In this document: positions 195-7,506 of the stretch, one piece after another | How positions within the stretch are numbered: position 1 is the first letter of the stretch | Layout of the letters: each line of letters opens with the position of its first letter | Assembly (NCBI GenBank): GCA_030652805.1 | Contig: JAUSPT010000045.1 | Location: forward strand, 1 to 7,886 | Direction of reading: 5' to 3' | Length of the DNA stretch: 7,886 bases | From: a bacterium | GTDB taxonomy: Bacteria > JAHJDO01 | Notes under the pieces: generated by a model | Database searches by the model: none | What the model saw: only the letters and a program-made list of their open reading frames with translations | Told to the model about the DNA's origin: nothing | Position numbers and translations under genes: made by a program

Positions 195-1262
195 ATGAAA
201 ATAGGAATTATAGGACTTCCTCAAGTTGGCAAGAAAATTCTATTTGAAGTTCTGACACAACAAAAATCCAACACACCAGATAATTCAAGAGACATAATCC
301 CTGGCGTTGTAAGAGTAAAGGATACTAGATTTGACAAACTTGTTTCCATATATTCCCCTAAAAACGAGGTTCCTGCAACAATAGACATATCGCTTCTTCC
401 TAAAATAGAAAAGGAAACAGTATCAAGAGGAGAGGTTTTTGCAAAGATCGCAGATGTGGATGCGCTTTGCCATATAGTCCGCTCATTTGAAGATGAATCA
501 GTTTACCATGTTGAAGGTTCAATTAATCCCATTCGGGATATAGCCGCAATTAATTCCGAACTAATTCTAAATGATATGATATTTATAGAAAAAAGACTTG
601 AAAGAATAGATAAAGAGCTTTCAAGAAAAAAGGATATAATTAAAGAAAAAGATAAAGAAATACTTTTAAAACTAAAAGCCCATCTTGAGAAAGAGCTGCC
701 TCTCAGAACTATGCCTCTGAATAAAGAAGAGTTTAAACTAATATTAGCATATCAATTTATTTCTATGAAGCCGATGATAATAGTTTTGAATGTTGAAGAA
801 GAAGATATAAAAGATACGAGTCTTCTTGACTCTGTAAAGCTGAAATACAAAGATCAACAAATGGAGATAATACAAGTTTCCGTTAAGATAGAATCTGAAA
901 TAGCCTCTCTTCCAGAAGAAGAGCAAAAAGACTTTCTTTCTGAGCTTGGGATAGAAGAACCGGCAATCAATGCTCTAACAAGATCATTTTATAAAACGCT
1001 TGGATTAATATCGTTCTTTACTGTAGGCAAGGATGAAGTTCGGGAATGGATGGTTAGAAAAAATTCTACAGCTCCTGAAGCAGCAGGGGTAATTCACACA
1101 GATCTCCAGCGCGGCTTTATAAGAGCACAGGTTATTAAATACGAGGATTTAGTATCCCTTGGCACAGAAGCGAAAGTAAAAGAAGCTGGAAAATGCTATG
1201 TTAAAGGGAAAGATTATATTGTAGAAGATGGAGACATAATAGATATAAGGTTTAATGTATGA
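195..1262 (+). CDS. YchF/Obg-like protein with degenerate nucleotide-binding site (TGS/DUF933 C-terminus)
   Basis: This 355-residue protein (YchF is usually about 363) aligns along its length with the ribosome-associated ATPase YchF. The start MKIGIIGLPQVGK matches the family N-terminus, so the ATG at 195 is preferred to the in-frame ATG at 105, which would put the promoter inside the gene. Retained features are the Obg-like middle (HIVRSFED about 93-100; the helical INSELILND about 119-127), a G4-like NVEE (199-202) and the conserved C-terminal TGS/DUF933 region (FFTVGKDEVREW about 274-285; APEAAGVIHTDLQRGFIRA about 293-311; GKDYIVEDGD about 338-347). The nucleotide site is damaged: G1 reads GLPQVGKK with Lys-Ile in place of Ser-Thr after the P-loop lysine, and the DIAGLV (G3) and GEGLGN stretch is replaced by DISLLP and SRGEVF. 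It probably binds ribosomes or partners but may not hydrolyse nucleotide. A canonical ychF may exist elsewhere. It is coupled to the next gene by an ATGA overlap. Confidence 0.88.
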   Translation: MKIGIIGLPQVGKKILFEVLTQQKSNTPDNSRDIIPGVVRVKDTRFDKLVSIYSPKNEVPATIDISLLPKIEKETVSRGEVFAKIADVDALCHIVRSFEDESVYHVEGSINPIRDIAAINSELILNDMIFIEKRLERIDKELSRKKDIIKEKDKEILLKLKAHLEKELPLRTMPLNKEEFKLILAYQFISMKPMIIVLNVEEEDIKDTSLLDSVKLKYKDQQMEIIQVSVKIESEIASLPEEEQKDFLSELGIEEPAINALTRSFYKTLGLISFFTVGKDEVREWMVRKNSTAPEAAGVIHTDLQRGFIRAQVIKYEDLVSLGTEAKVKEAGKCYVKGKDYIVEDGDIIDIRFNV

Positions 1263-2566: not shown

Positions 2567-2584
2567 TTATCATATTTATGATAA
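2567..2584. promoter_or_regulatory. Perfect palindrome between divergent genes, candidate operator
   Basis: TTATCATATTTATGATAA has two perfect 8-base arms around a 2-base centre. It sits in the roughly 58-base gap between the divergent starts of the release-factor-like gene (2537) and the lipoprotein gene (2596). Its size suits a dimeric regulator and its place would let one protein control both genes. It is AT-only apart from one C and one G, so chance is a real alternative. The region must also contain promoters, but I see no convincing -35/-10 pair. Confidence 0.3.
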
Positions 2585-2595
2585 CATATTGCGAA

Positions 2596-3189
2596 ATGAA
2601 TAAAAAATATAACATTATAGCTATCTTCGTTTGCGCCGCGTTATTTTTAAGCGGATGCGCCATTTTGAAACTCCCAGGACAGATAATAGTTGTTGCAGGA
2701 AAAATAGTTGTAGTAACGTTGCAAACAACGGGCAAACTGATTACAACCACCGGAAAGATTGTTGCCACAGTAGTTAAGATACCCGGTGGCAGGAAAGTCA
2801 TAAAACTTACCAAAGTAGGCAATGCCCTATTTGCCAATGCGGTTCTAAACAAGAAAGTAAAAACACAACTGGTTATTGACACAGGGTGTACTCATACACA
2901 AATATCCGCAAGAATAGCCAAAAAGCTGAAGATAAAAAAGAATGAAGGCGAAAAAGTTCTGTGTGAATTAGCAAATGGGCAGAAGGTAGAAGGCAGAGCA
3001 GTTAATATTAAAGAAATCAAAGTCGGCAAAGTAAAGGCCTATAATGTAAGAGTTGTTATTCTTGACAGAGAGATATCGGGTGAATCGGATGGACTGCTAG
3101 GCATGTCTTTTTTGAATAATTTTATTTTTAAAATAGATACTGAAAAAAGTGAATTAACTCTGGAAAAGAGAAAAAAGCCCAATAGATAA
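2596..3189 (+). CDS. Lipoprotein with a retropepsin-like aspartic protease domain
   Basis: This 197-residue protein starts MNKKYN and continues with a hydrophobic segment ending in the lipobox LSGC (Cys21), so it is probably lipidated and held in the envelope. An in-frame ATG at 2578 would add six residues but falls inside the palindrome; neither start has a good ribosome binding site. Residues about 24-65 form a repetitive Gly-Lys-Ile-Val and Thr-rich spacer (GQIIVVAG, GKIVVV, TGKLITTT, GKIVATVV). The protease domain follows: LVIDTGCTHTQIS carries the catalytic Asp-Thr-Gly at 95-97, and the hydrophobic-Gly partner motif is DGLLGMSFLNNF (about 165-176). With a single Asp-Thr-Gly it should be active only as a homodimer, as in retroviral proteases and bacterial clan AA single-domain proteins. 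The substrate is unknown. It is followed by a 126-base gap before the export operon, so co-transcription is uncertain. Confidence 0.8.
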   Translation: MNKKYNIIAIFVCAALFLSGCAILKLPGQIIVVAGKIVVVTLQTTGKLITTTGKIVATVVKIPGGRKVIKLTKVGNALFANAVLNKKVKTQLVIDTGCTHTQISARIAKKLKIKKNEGEKVLCELANGQKVEGRAVNIKEIKVGKVKAYNVRVVILDREISGESDGLLGMSFLNNFIFKIDTEKSELTLEKRKKPNR

Positions 3190-3300
3190 AAAGCTCTTTA
3201 TAAGAGTTAGTTATGAAAAGATCAGAAAAATTTCTAGTGTAAACTTTTTCTCTTTTTTCTCGTCTAACATGATAAAGTGCATACAATGAGTTCTATAAGA

Positions 3301-3308
3301 AAGGGAAG
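3301..3308 (+). promoter_or_regulatory. Ribosome binding site fixing the TolC-family start at 3316
   Basis: AAGGGAAG lies seven bases before the ATG at 3316. It decides against the in-frame GTG at 3277, which would place 13 extra residues before an otherwise standard signal peptide. Confidence 0.6.
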
Positions 3309-3315
3309 CAATAAA

Positions 3316-4590
3316 ATGTTCAGATGTATAAAGCTGGTTATTACCTTCTTGTTATTTTTTAGTTTTGCATTGTTTGAAGCTAAAGCTGAAGAAGCGCTTA
3401 CATGGGAGGCTTGCGTTAAAGAGGCAAAACAAAATCATCCTGATTTACTATCGGCACAGGAAAATTTAAAACAATCCAAAGCAGACAAATCAATAGCCAT
3501 GAGTACTATGCTGCCGCAGATAAGCGCTGATGCAAGCGACAAAAAATTAGAAACGGATGTTAAAAAAGAATACGAGGCTTCTTCATACAGCATAACAGGA
3601 AAACAATTATTATTTGACGGCTTTAAAATAGCTAATGATGTAAAGGCTGGTTCGGAAACTATAAAGGCTTCTCAATATAACTATGCAGTAACGTCTTCCA
3701 ATATAAGATTAAGATTAAAAACTGCCTTTACTGAACTTCTAAGAACCCAGAAACTTGTTCTTATGACAGAAGAGATAGCTTTGCGCAGAAAACAGAATTC
3801 GGAACTTGTAAAATTGCGTTACGAAGCAGGCAGAGAACACAGGGGTTCATTGTTGACCTCTCAAGCTGATTTAGCTCAGGCTGAATTTGAAGTTGTTCAG
3901 GCGAAAAGGAGTGTTTCTCTGGCCCAAAGACAATTAACAAAAGAATTAGGACGCAGAAAATTGGTATCTATTGAGGCAAATGGAGATTTCGGAATTACAG
4001 AGATCAATAGACAAAAACCAAACTTTGAATATTTAGCTGATAACACGATTTTCTTAAAGGAACTTATTGCTAAGAAAGAAGCGGCTAGATTTGGTTTAAA
4101 ATCTGCTAAGGCTGACTTTTTCCCTAAAGTTTACGCCAGTGCCACTACAGGAACAACTAACTCGGATTGGCTGCCGGACGAGGATACGTATGCATGGTCG
4201 GTTGGTGTAAGCGTATCTTTGCCAATATTCGAAGGCGGAAGCAGAATAGCTAAAATTTCTAAAGCCAAAGCAGGACTGAATAAGGCACAAGCGGATGAAC
4301 GAAGCGGACGAGATAGTATTATTTTTACATTAGAAGAAACATGGACAGAGTTTCAGAATGCAACGGACAGGGTCTCTGTGCAAAGCAAATATCTTGAAGC
4401 CGCTAAAGAACGGGCACAGATAGCTAATGCTCAGTATTCGACAGGACTTGTATCTTTTAATGATTGGATAATTATTGAAGATAATATCGTAAGTGCAAAG
4501 AAATCTTTTTTGAATGCTCAAGCAAATATTCTGGTAAATGAAGCTAACTGGATACAGGCAAAAGGAGGAACTCTGGATTATGAAAAATAA
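3316..4590 (+). CDS. TolC-family outer-membrane efflux channel
   Basis: The protein has 424 residues, in the usual TolC-family range. A Sec signal peptide (MFRCIKLVIT, then a hydrophobic core) ends at AKA, with cleavage likely after Ala24. The mature start LTWEACVKEAKQNHPDL is the typical opening helix of the family. Two internal repeats are visible: the first with LRYEAGREHRGSLLTSQADLAQAE (Tyr169 onward in the turn), the second with AQYSTGLVSFNDW (Tyr374-Gly377). Each holds a beta-strand pair, marked by LLFDGF in the first half and SLPIFEGGS in the second, and long coiled-coil helices. A trimer would form an outer-membrane barrel with a periplasmic tunnel for substrates delivered by the adaptor and ATPase downstream. 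The adaptor gene begins inside this gene's last 11 bases, so the three are one operon. I saw no convincing promoter in the 126-base gap upstream. Confidence 0.93.
   Translation: MFRCIKLVITFLLFFSFALFEAKAEEALTWEACVKEAKQNHPDLLSAQENLKQSKADKSIAMSTMLPQISADASDKKLETDVKKEYEASSYSITGKQLLFDGFKIANDVKAGSETIKASQYNYAVTSSNIRLRLKTAFTELLRTQKLVLMTEEIALRRKQNSELVKLRYEAGREHRGSLLTSQADLAQAEFEVVQAKRSVSLAQRQLTKELGRRKLVSIEANGDFGITEINRQKPNFEYLADNTIFLKELIAKKEAARFGLKSAKADFFPKVYASATTGTTNSDWLPDEDTYAWSVGVSVSLPIFEGGSRIAKISKAKAGLNKAQADERSGRDSIIFTLEETWTEFQNATDRVSVQSKYLEAAKERAQIANAQYSTGLVSFNDWIIIEDNIVSAKKSFLNAQANILVNEANWIQAKGGTLDYEK
4561..4568 (+). promoter_or_regulatory. Ribosome binding site for the adaptor gene, inside the TolC-family CDS
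   Basis: AAAGGAGG ends 11 bases before the ATG at 4580, a slightly long but workable spacing. It supports that ATG over the earlier in-frame ATG at 4538, whose added 14 residues would precede the membrane anchor. Confidence 0.65.
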
Positions 4591-5545
4591 GAAGTGGAAA
4601 GTTTATTCTATTTTATTAATCGTATTACTTATCATCGGCATAGTGGCAATAAGGACAAATAGAGGCAAGGTTTCTCAAGAAATTGTCAAGGTAATAACGC
4701 CAGTCTATGGCAATATTCAAAATTTTATATCAACGACCGGCACAGTACAGCCTCAAAACCGCCTTGAGCTAAAGCCGACAATCAGCGGACGAATTGAGAG
4801 TATTTTGGTTAAAGAGGGGGAAAAAGTAAAAATCGGTCAAACCCTTGCATGGATGAGCTCAACGGAAAGGGCAGCTCTTTTAGATGCCGCCAGAGCGCAG
4901 GACGAAAAAAGCATGAAATACTGGCAGGATGCGTATAAGCCTACTCCTCTGGTAGCCCCTATTGACGGAGAGGTAATTGTTAGAGCAGTTGAACCGGGTC
5001 AGACTGTTACTTCTTCTGACGCTGTGATTGTATTATCGGACCGCCTAATTGTTAATGCTCAGGTTGATGAAACCGATATCGGAAAAGTAAAGCCCGGTCA
5101 AACAGCAATCATCAGTTTAGACGCATATCCTCAGGTAAAAGTAGACGCAAAAGTTGACCATATATCCTACGAATCTAAGGTTGTTAATAATGTCACTATT
5201 TATGAAGTTGAAATTGTTCCCCAGCGGGTACCCGATGTTTTTCGCTCAGGTATGAGCGCAAACGTAAACATAGTAGAGACAAACAAAGATAATATCTTGA
5301 TCATACCTCTTGAAGCCCTCAATCGGGATAAAAAAGGCAGTTTTGTCCTTTTAAGTCAAAGCAAAGATGAAAAGTCCCTTAAGCGTGAGGTTCAACCTGG
5401 CATTTCTGATGAACAAAACATAGAAATTATCTCAGGGCTGATGCCAGAAGATAAAATAATAATTAAGACCCAGAAGTATATGCCCTCAAAAGGCACAGAT
5501 GGCGGCAGTAATCCTTTTATGCCTTCTCGTAAGAAAAAGAAGTGA
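4580..5545 (+). CDS. Periplasmic adaptor (membrane fusion protein, HlyD/MacA-like) with minimal hairpin
   Basis: This 321-residue adaptor should bridge the inner-membrane MacB-like transporter and the TolC-family channel. It has a basic N-terminus and one membrane anchor (about 8-24). The first lipoyl half includes ELKPTISGRIESILVKEGE (about 63-81), the second APIDGEVIVRAVEPGQTV (about 126-143). A beta-barrel domain (about 158-231, with VDETDIGKVKPGQ) and a membrane-proximal domain (about 232-300) follow, and the C-terminus is the basic RKKKK. The odd point is the segment between the lipoyl halves: only about 30 residues (93-121, STERAALLDAARAQ and onward) where MacA and AcrA have a long alpha-helical hairpin that docks to TolC. 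I recall related adaptors with this same short segment, so it looks like a family trait rather than a deletion. The gene overlaps its upstream neighbour by 11 bases and its downstream neighbour by 4. Confidence 0.9.
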   Translation: MKNKKWKVYSILLIVLLIIGIVAIRTNRGKVSQEIVKVITPVYGNIQNFISTTGTVQPQNRLELKPTISGRIESILVKEGEKVKIGQTLAWMSSTERAALLDAARAQDEKSMKYWQDAYKPTPLVAPIDGEVIVRAVEPGQTVTSSDAVIVLSDRLIVNAQVDETDIGKVKPGQTAIISLDAYPQVKVDAKVDHISYESKVVNNVTIYEVEIVPQRVPDVFRSGMSANVNIVETNKDNILIIPLEALNRDKKGSFVLLSQSKDEKSLKREVQPGISDEQNIEIISGLMPEDKIIIKTQKYMPSKGTDGGSNPFMPSRKKKK

Positions 5546-7506
5546 TAGAATTAAAGAATATAAACAAGACCTACAAAATTGGCGAAATAGGAGTACAGGC
5601 GTTACGTAATGTATCCATGGAGATTACTCCGGGGGAATTTGTTGCCATTATGGGTCCTTCAGGTTCCGGCAAATCAACTCTTCTTCATTTATTAGGTTTT
5701 TTAGACAAGCCTGATTCAGGCTCGTACTATTTAGGAAAAAAAGAAGTAGCGAATCTCACTGATGATGAATCAGCTATTTTAAGAAATCGTCTGGCAGGTT
5801 TTGTCTTTCAGCAATTTCATCTGCTTCCCCGAATGACTGCCTTGGAGAATGCAGAACTTCCTTTAATCTATGCTGGTAAACGTCACCTAAAAGAGAAAGC
5901 TCTACAACAGATTGAGGCGGTTGGTCTCACACAGAGAGCATCTCACAGCCCGAATGAACTTTCCGGCGGAGAACGACAACGAGTTGCCATTGCACGTTCT
6001 TTAGTGAATGAACCATTGATTATTTTTGCCGATGAACCAACAGGCAATCTTGACACAAAGAGCGGACAAGAGATTATGGCAATTTTGCAAAGATTGAATC
6101 AGAATGGTAAAACCATTGTGATGGTTACCCATGAGAAAGAGATTGCCCAGTACGCAAAAAGAATCATTTGTATGCGCGACGGTAAAATTATTTCTGATGA
6201 AAAAATTAAAACTGAGACTGAGAAGGTTTCTTCACCCTCTGTAATCATTCCATTAGAAGACATTCTATCGGAGTCACATTCAACTGTCAGAAAGGCCGAG
6301 TTCTTAGACCATATCCGACAGGCTGTTCAGGCCATATTTTCACATAAGATGCGTTCAATCCTTTCTATTCTTGGTATTCTTATCGGTGTTGCAGCAGTAA
6401 TTGCTATGCTCGCTTTAGGGCAGGGAGCAAAAGAGTCTATTTCGCAAAGATTAGCTTCTTTAGGTTCAAATCTCTTAGTTATAAGCCCCGGCTCCCGACG
6501 AACGCACGGAGTAGCTTTAGAAGCCGGAGCAATCACTCGATTTACGCTAAGAGATGCGGAGGCAATCACAAAGCTGCCAATGCTGGAAAAAGTTTCTCCT
6601 ACGGTAAGAGGTCGTGCTCAACTCGTTTATGGCAATAAAAACTGGAATACACAGGTTTACGGCACAGGAGCAGATTACGCATCCATGCGGGCGTCTATTC
6701 CTACTGTCGGCAGGTTTTTTGCAGAAGAAGAGTTACGGATGCGTCAGAAAGTGGTTTTGCTTGGGACTACTATAGTAAAAGAAGTTTTCGAAGATATTAA
6801 TCCGGTTGGCTCAACAGTCAGAATAAACCGCATAAATTTTAAGGTAATCGGTATTCTGCCGGAGAAAGGAGCAACCGGCTGGCATGACCAGGATGATCTG
6901 GTGGTTATTCCTATTACTACTGCTATGTACCGGCTTCTGGGAAAGGATTATGTGGATTCTATTGATGTGCAGGTAAAAGATATTAGTATGATGGAGAAAG
7001 CACAATCTTCAATACGCCAGCTTATTATCAAACTTCACCGTCTTGACGAAGACGATGAAAGTTCATTTCGAATTCGTAACATGGCTGAAATTCAGGAAGT
7101 TCTAGAGAGCACAACAAGGACAATGACTTTGCTTTTGGGTTCTATCGCAGCTATAGCCCTTTTAGTCGGCGGCATAGGCATTATGAACATTATGCTTGTT
7201 TCAGTAACCGAACGTACCAGAGAAATAGGTCTTCGTAAGGCAATAGGAGCACGCAGGAAAGACATACTGTCCCAGTTTCTTATTGAGTCCGTTGTTATGA
7301 CATTTAGCGGTGGAATAATTGGTATTATATTTGGAGTGGGCATAGCTTCCCTCTTGTCTTTCTTTGCAGGCTGGGCAACTAAGGTTTCTGTATCATCGGT
7401 AGTTTTGGCTACGACGTTTTCTGTTGCCGTTGGGATAGGATTCGGCTTCTGGCCTGCCCGTCAGGCTGCAAAACTCAATCCGATAGAAGCGTTAAGATAC
7501 GAATAA
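5542..7506 (+). CDS. macB: MacB-like ABC transporter, fused ATPase and permease
   Basis: The protein has 654 residues, close to E. coli MacB (648). The N-terminal ATPase domain has Walker [10 protein letters not shown] (38-46), Q-loop Gln90, the signature SGGERQ (141-146), Walker B IIFADEP (160-166), D-loop GNLD (168-171) and switch His197, so it looks catalytically intact. A charged linker (about 218-262) leads to the MacB/FtsX permease: a first membrane helix at about 270-293, a large periplasmic domain (about 295-525), then three helices near 525-555, 575-605 and 615-638. [14 protein letters not shown] (557-570) and the ending NPIEALRYE are characteristic. MacB-type pumps work by mechanotransmission, driving periplasmic substrates through TolC; these include macrolides, peptides, lipopeptides and siderophores in different hosts. 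The start is GTG at 5542, overlapping the adaptor stop as GTGA with only a weak AG-rich site upstream, which implies translational coupling. The substrate here is unknown. Confidence 0.94.

Follow-up and report, generated by a model that had tools for sequence, protein, structure and literature searches.

A conserved YchF subfamily with a dismantled Mg2+ site that probably lacks canonical ATP hydrolysis

The only YchF detected in the genome studied here belongs to a conserved subfamily in which the Mg2+ site of the G domain has been lost. We put the probability at roughly two in three that these are non-hydrolyzing YchF proteins, their Mg2+/γ-phosphate site having been dismantled, which act through the TGS domain and the coiled coil; this reading is drawn from sequence comparison. 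YchF/OLA1 is described as a universally conserved, ribosome-associated ATPase whose influence on translation and stress is ascribed to its dependence on ATP.

The gene is found at positions 195–1262, on the forward strand, of the window, by which we mean the whole stretch of 7,886 nucleotides that was analyzed. Its uninterrupted frame encodes a protein of 355 residues, which matches the NCBIfam equivalog profile TIGR00092 (“redox-regulated ATPase YchF”) over residues 2–355 with 312.9 bits, above the curated cut-off of 279.2 bits; two of its relatives (L005 and L008) fall narrowly below that cut-off, at 274 and 276 bits. The domain order of the YchF family is complete: the G domain is present together with a coiled-coil, helical insert (525–749; helices 112–144 and 148–165 of the predicted model) and the C-terminal TGS domain (1005–1256), which scores 129.9 bits with the Pfam profile for the YchF C-terminal domain (PF06071). 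AlphaFold2, run on ten sequences of the clade, gave a mean pLDDT of 83.8 and a pTM of 0.80, and the top matches of the model in the PDB are all YchF/OLA1 structures: OsYchF1, 8kie (YchF bound to the 50S subunit), H. influenzae YchF and human OLA1, with Z of 31.6–34.7 over 315–343 residues at 34–41% identity (fold matches include 5ee0, 8kie, and 1jal). Going by this model, the YchF fold is unchanged and the difference is confined to the chemistry of the site; the loop that carries His105 (residues 101–107) is modeled at low confidence. The gene is under purifying selection, the degenerate G domain included: among four congeners dN/dS is 0.12–0.19 for the whole gene, 0.10–0.20 for the N-terminal G-domain part and 0.055–0.10 for the TGS domain, the most constrained region.

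What has been lost is clearly defined by alignment. The P-loop (GLPQVGKKI, 213–239) retains its glycines and Lys13, and Lys14 stands in place of the Mg-coordinating Ser/Thr, at the position of Ser16 in the E. coli structure; residue 15 is Ile. The canonical G3/switch II motif, DIAGLVxGASxGEGLGN, is replaced (372–452) by ISLLPKIEKETVSRGEVF, which includes LLPKIEKET, so that Asp67 has become Leu and Gly70 Lys, and neither DxxG nor GEGLGN is present. The switch-I (G2) Thr, found in 38/38 canonical YchFs, is absent as well. Retained are Phe98 and the loop SVYHVEG with His105 (486–518), and the G4 adenine specificity motif NVEE (789–800) with Asn199 and Glu202. Phe98 and Asn199 align with Phe127 and Asn230 of hOLA1 (positions counted via the OsYchF1 alignment), to which ATP binding is assigned (summarized in PMC10144078, Table 1), and His105 aligns with E. 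coli His114 (residue 114 of 8kie), which is credited with ATP hydrolysis, Ser16 supporting the ATPase (summarized in PMC10144078). A preliminary description, made from the letters of this DNA, had reported the missing Ser/Thr, the replaced G3 and GEGLGN segments and the retained TGS region and NVEE, and all of these are borne out by the alignments, the column counts given below and the PF06071 match. It had also described the nucleotide-hydrolysis motifs as apparently lost and stated that every change hits Mg/nucleotide chemistry, which holds for the Mg2+ and γ-phosphate chemistry but goes too far for the rest, the nucleotide site being only partly erased: since the adenine-recognition residues and the E. 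coli-type catalytic-loop His persist, these losses do not imply that nucleotide is no longer bound.

The same state is widespread. Homologs with 43–94% identity were collected from GTDB contigs, from Desulfobacterota, Omnitrophota, and Spirochaetota, and from a wide bacterial sample, and 52 sequences without the P-loop Ser/Thr were found in these three phyla and in unnamed lineages: four congeneric assemblies and 48 other homologs, including one from the cultured Desulfoluna spongiiphila, share this pattern of loss. Position 14 is Ser/Thr in 0/52 and basic in 44/52 (Lys in 37, Arg in 7); Asp67 (Leu in 49) and Gly70 are each found in 0/52. Conserved across the same sequences are Gly7 and Gly12 of the P-loop (52/52) and Lys13 (48/52), Phe98 (50/52), Asn199 and Glu/Asp202 (both 52/52), Tyr/Phe104 (50/52) and His105 (50/52). 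A core of 19 sequences around the window has a replacement motif of its own, [IL]xLLPK[ILM]E[KQ]E...G[DE][IV]F, in which Glu72, Gly79, and Phe82 are each found in 19/19, with Cys92 and Tyr104 also invariant; Glu72 is not universal in the wider group (Glu in 33 and Asp in 6 of the 52). Judged from these columns, the shared pattern is conservation of a new state, neither noise nor chance. Close relatives with an intact G1 and G3 had been named as a check on the preliminary description; the close relatives, too, are without the G1 Ser/Thr and G3. Two Ser/Thr-less sequences (L115 and L120, from genomes G150 and G114) have gone further: their P-loop, GLPQAGQQE, has no Lys either, and the His loop is absent as well.

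The question of whether a canonical YchF accompanies the Mg-less form was addressed by copy number. In the genome of the window (G000, 95.6% complete), PF06071, TIGR00092, and the window protein as query agree on a single YchF, the remaining TIGR00092 matches being other GTPases matched over the G domain only. The Mg-less form is again the sole copy in the congeners G002, G003, and G004 (96, 91, and 90% complete), and no YchF was found in the congener G001 (62% complete); a search of the DNA with the canonical switch-II pattern had no match in any of these five genomes. More broadly, the Mg-less form is the sole YchF match in the genus of the window, in most of the Omnitrophota matches and in many of those from Desulfobacterota; individual absences are weak because the genomes are largely drafts, and the pattern nevertheless recurs. 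Both forms are present in ten genomes (G061, G063, G065, G240, G617, G675, G700, G710, G725, and G739), that of D. spongiiphila among them. The DNA pattern places a canonical YchF in at least 130 of 289 genomes, a lower bound, as certain copies look canonical yet have GQGLGN or GAGLGN. Some Omnitrophota (G619, G633, and G635) have two adjacent canonical-type YchF genes in tandem (L201, L202, and L203), each pair with one GKS and one GKT copy, and GQGLGN/GAGLGN variants are present in two of the three pairs.

Phylogenetic analysis was carried out with the motif columns excluded, as unrooted quick searches with SH-aLRT support only. In the first tree, the canonical YchFs (38 rows) are separated by one branch (SH-aLRT 96*) from all of the variants, and loss of the Ser/Thr needs a single change; a second tree of 116 rows gave the same two results, with support of 98* for the canonical and 91 for the Ser/Thr-less sequences. 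The neighbors of the Mg-less group on the same side of the tree, here called degSwII (for example, L030, L031, and L116), likewise lack GEGLGN and the switch-I Thr; they differ in retaining GK[ST] (31/31), Asp67 (31/31), and mostly Gly70 (26/31), so that their Mg ligands are probably intact, and His105 is found in only 19/31. These residues suggest a stepwise loss, GEGLGN first and the Mg ligands afterwards, an order that, coming from unrooted quick searches, is inferential. In a sample of 54 diverse bacterial families (genomes G005–G058), about 22 have only a YchF without GEGLGN, and most of these retain GK[ST] and Asp67.

An even shorter form was found in ten Omnitrophota genomes (loci L181–L190 in G628, G627, G642, G660, G634, G666, G658, G646, G620, and G654), where a protein of 233–234 residues, mostly starting MKI, is the sole YchF match, as the full-length form is in the genome of the window. 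Unlike the window protein, this mini-YchF lacks the P-loop, helix 1 and switch I, switch II, the His loop, and the G4 motif; like it, the protein retains the coiled-coil and TGS regions, the latter about 48% identical to full-length forms. One representative scores 117.6 bits with PF06071 and 127.9 bits with TIGR00092, far under the cut-off. It is taken as a parallel or later case of the same trend, and descent from the group of the window is only conjectural, because the mini-YchF sits on a long branch whose position in the 116-row tree is uncertain. That there is a large non-catalytic branch of YchF, in which GEGLGN, then all of the Mg ligands, and then, in some Omnitrophota, the whole site were dismantled, leaving the TGS/coiled-coil part as the sole YchF, is a proposal for which we consider the chances evenly balanced.

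The genomic neighborhood points to no partner: the surroundings of more than 20 relatives disagree, and no gene is common to them. A short-chain dehydrogenase (SDR) gene lies 3′ of ychF in the genus of the window, and a siroheme/hemA-C-D cluster takes this place in some Desulfobacterota. In the window, the ychF stop and the ATG of the dehydrogenase gene (1259–2104) share a 4-base overlap, and the two genes are likely coupled in translation; the dehydrogenase gene comes after ychF in three congeners as well. It is followed on the reverse strand (2106–2552) by a gene for a stand-alone RF-1 domain protein with GGQ, a release-factor-like rescue protein, which is near ychF in G002 and G004 as well; further along are genes for a small protein that resembles a lipoprotein and has an aspartyl protease domain of the retroviral type (2578–3189) and, consecutively, for an outer membrane efflux protein, an HlyD-like adaptor, and a MacB-type ABC transporter (3277–7506).

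As to how such a protein might work, the joint loss of the P-loop Ser/Thr, the switch-I Thr, the Asp and Gly of G3, and GEGLGN would abolish canonical hydrolysis, and we consider it likely, from these residues, that canonical ATP hydrolysis does not take place. Adenine nucleotide could be held by the P-loop backbone and Lys13 together with Phe98, Asn199, and Glu202, the basic residue at position 14, often with another at position 70, substituting for the charge of Mg2+; that nucleotide is still bound, probably without Mg2+, is a tentative suggestion to which we give slightly less than even odds. The protein would then be a non-cycling form, constitutive or gated by a ligand, working on ribosomes or tRNA through its TGS domain and coiled coil, the parts that have been tied to tRNA and ribosomes in the YchF family (PMC10144078, PMC8138138). 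Going by knowledge of the family and by TGS conservation, it would associate with ribosomes. Where it is the sole copy it would perform the YchF job, and the mini-YchFs, with no site at all, would carry this trend to its extreme.

What this reading chiefly leaves unexplained is that His105 has been kept, and residual activity finds its strongest argument here: a frequency of 50/52, against 19/31 in the variants that contain Asp67, makes some hydrolysis by a rearranged site conceivable. The protein might thus still be an ATPase whose catalytic or metal ligands have migrated, for example to Glu72, His105, or Lys14/Lys70 of the core clade; Phe98 and Asn199 are retained along with His105, Glu72, invariant with Gly79 and Phe82 in the core, might be a migrated metal ligand, and migration of catalytic residues is recognized as a caveat for pseudoenzymes (PMC10211241). 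However, Glu72 is not maintained over the 52 sequences, the Lys or Arg usual at position 14 is an unlikely Mg2+ ligand, and every standard Mg ligand is gone at once, and we regard a surviving ATPase as improbable. Somewhat doubtful is a scaffold that binds no nucleotide at all, its pocket residues being maintained for fold stability alone: the strong alteration of position 14 and switch II and the TGS domain of mini-YchFs without any site would fit this, yet the near-invariance of Phe98, Asn199, Glu/Asp202, and the P-loop Gly and Lys13 exceeds what a role in stability alone leads one to expect.

The preliminary description had suggested a regulator of the true YchF. No second YchF was found with PF06071, TIGR00092, or the DNA pattern in the genome of the window or its congeners, and a canonical copy is likewise missing from many other genomes; nor was any linkage seen between the two genes. 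A divergent YchF serving solely as a dominant-negative or heteromeric partner of a canonical one is therefore very unlikely as a general account, the ten genomes with both forms being the point in its favor, and in those ten such a role is possible. Provenance from a metagenome-assembled genome and the loss of most catalytic motifs might also raise the suspicion of a recently decaying copy or an assembly artefact; the recurrence of the pattern in congeneric assemblies and 48 further homologs, the intact frames, and the low dN/dS of the whole gene leave this with next to no probability, and a decaying pseudogene is ruled out by dN/dS and the cross-phylum clade. The preferred reading is thus a conserved, non-hydrolyzing subfamily, and the “pseudo-ATPase” of the preliminary description gains support from its conservation across phyla and from purifying selection, while non-hydrolysis itself is inferred.

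The protein shares its fold, domain order, NxxE motif, TGS domain, and the equivalents of Phe127, Asn230, and His114 with YchF/OLA1, the Obg-family ATPase (E. coli YchF, human OLA1, OsYchF1); unlike these it has Lys at the Mg-ligand position and lacks the P-loop Ser/Thr, the switch-I Thr, DxxG, and GEGLGN. With its fold conserved, its catalytic and metal residues lost, and selection maintaining it, it has the traits of a pseudo-NTPase. By analogy, the nearest concept is that of pseudoGTPases such as the degenerate septins (PMC10731463) or p190RhoGAP (PMC5593906), a functional group that has likewise kept the G-domain fold and lost catalytic or Mg motifs; these differ in being eukaryotic, in serving assembly and signaling and in being related only by the P-loop fold, and the corresponding behavior is only predicted here. 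A search of open-licence papers found no description of a Mg-site-less YchF, and a survey of ribosome biogenesis factors in 30,000 genomes reports YchF as broadly conserved, its motifs not being discussed in the passages that name it.

If YchF does include such a non-catalytic branch, the conserved cellular function of a “universal ATPase” would be achievable without an ATP cycle. Annotation by family score (TIGR00092) calls such likely non-hydrolyzing proteins ATPases, which is a warning in itself. Genomes in which the sole YchF is without its Mg site, or without any nucleotide site, are a natural experiment: they set what the conserved TGS/coiled-coil part does apart from ATP hydrolysis, and they offer proteins ready for asking which region works on the ribosome.
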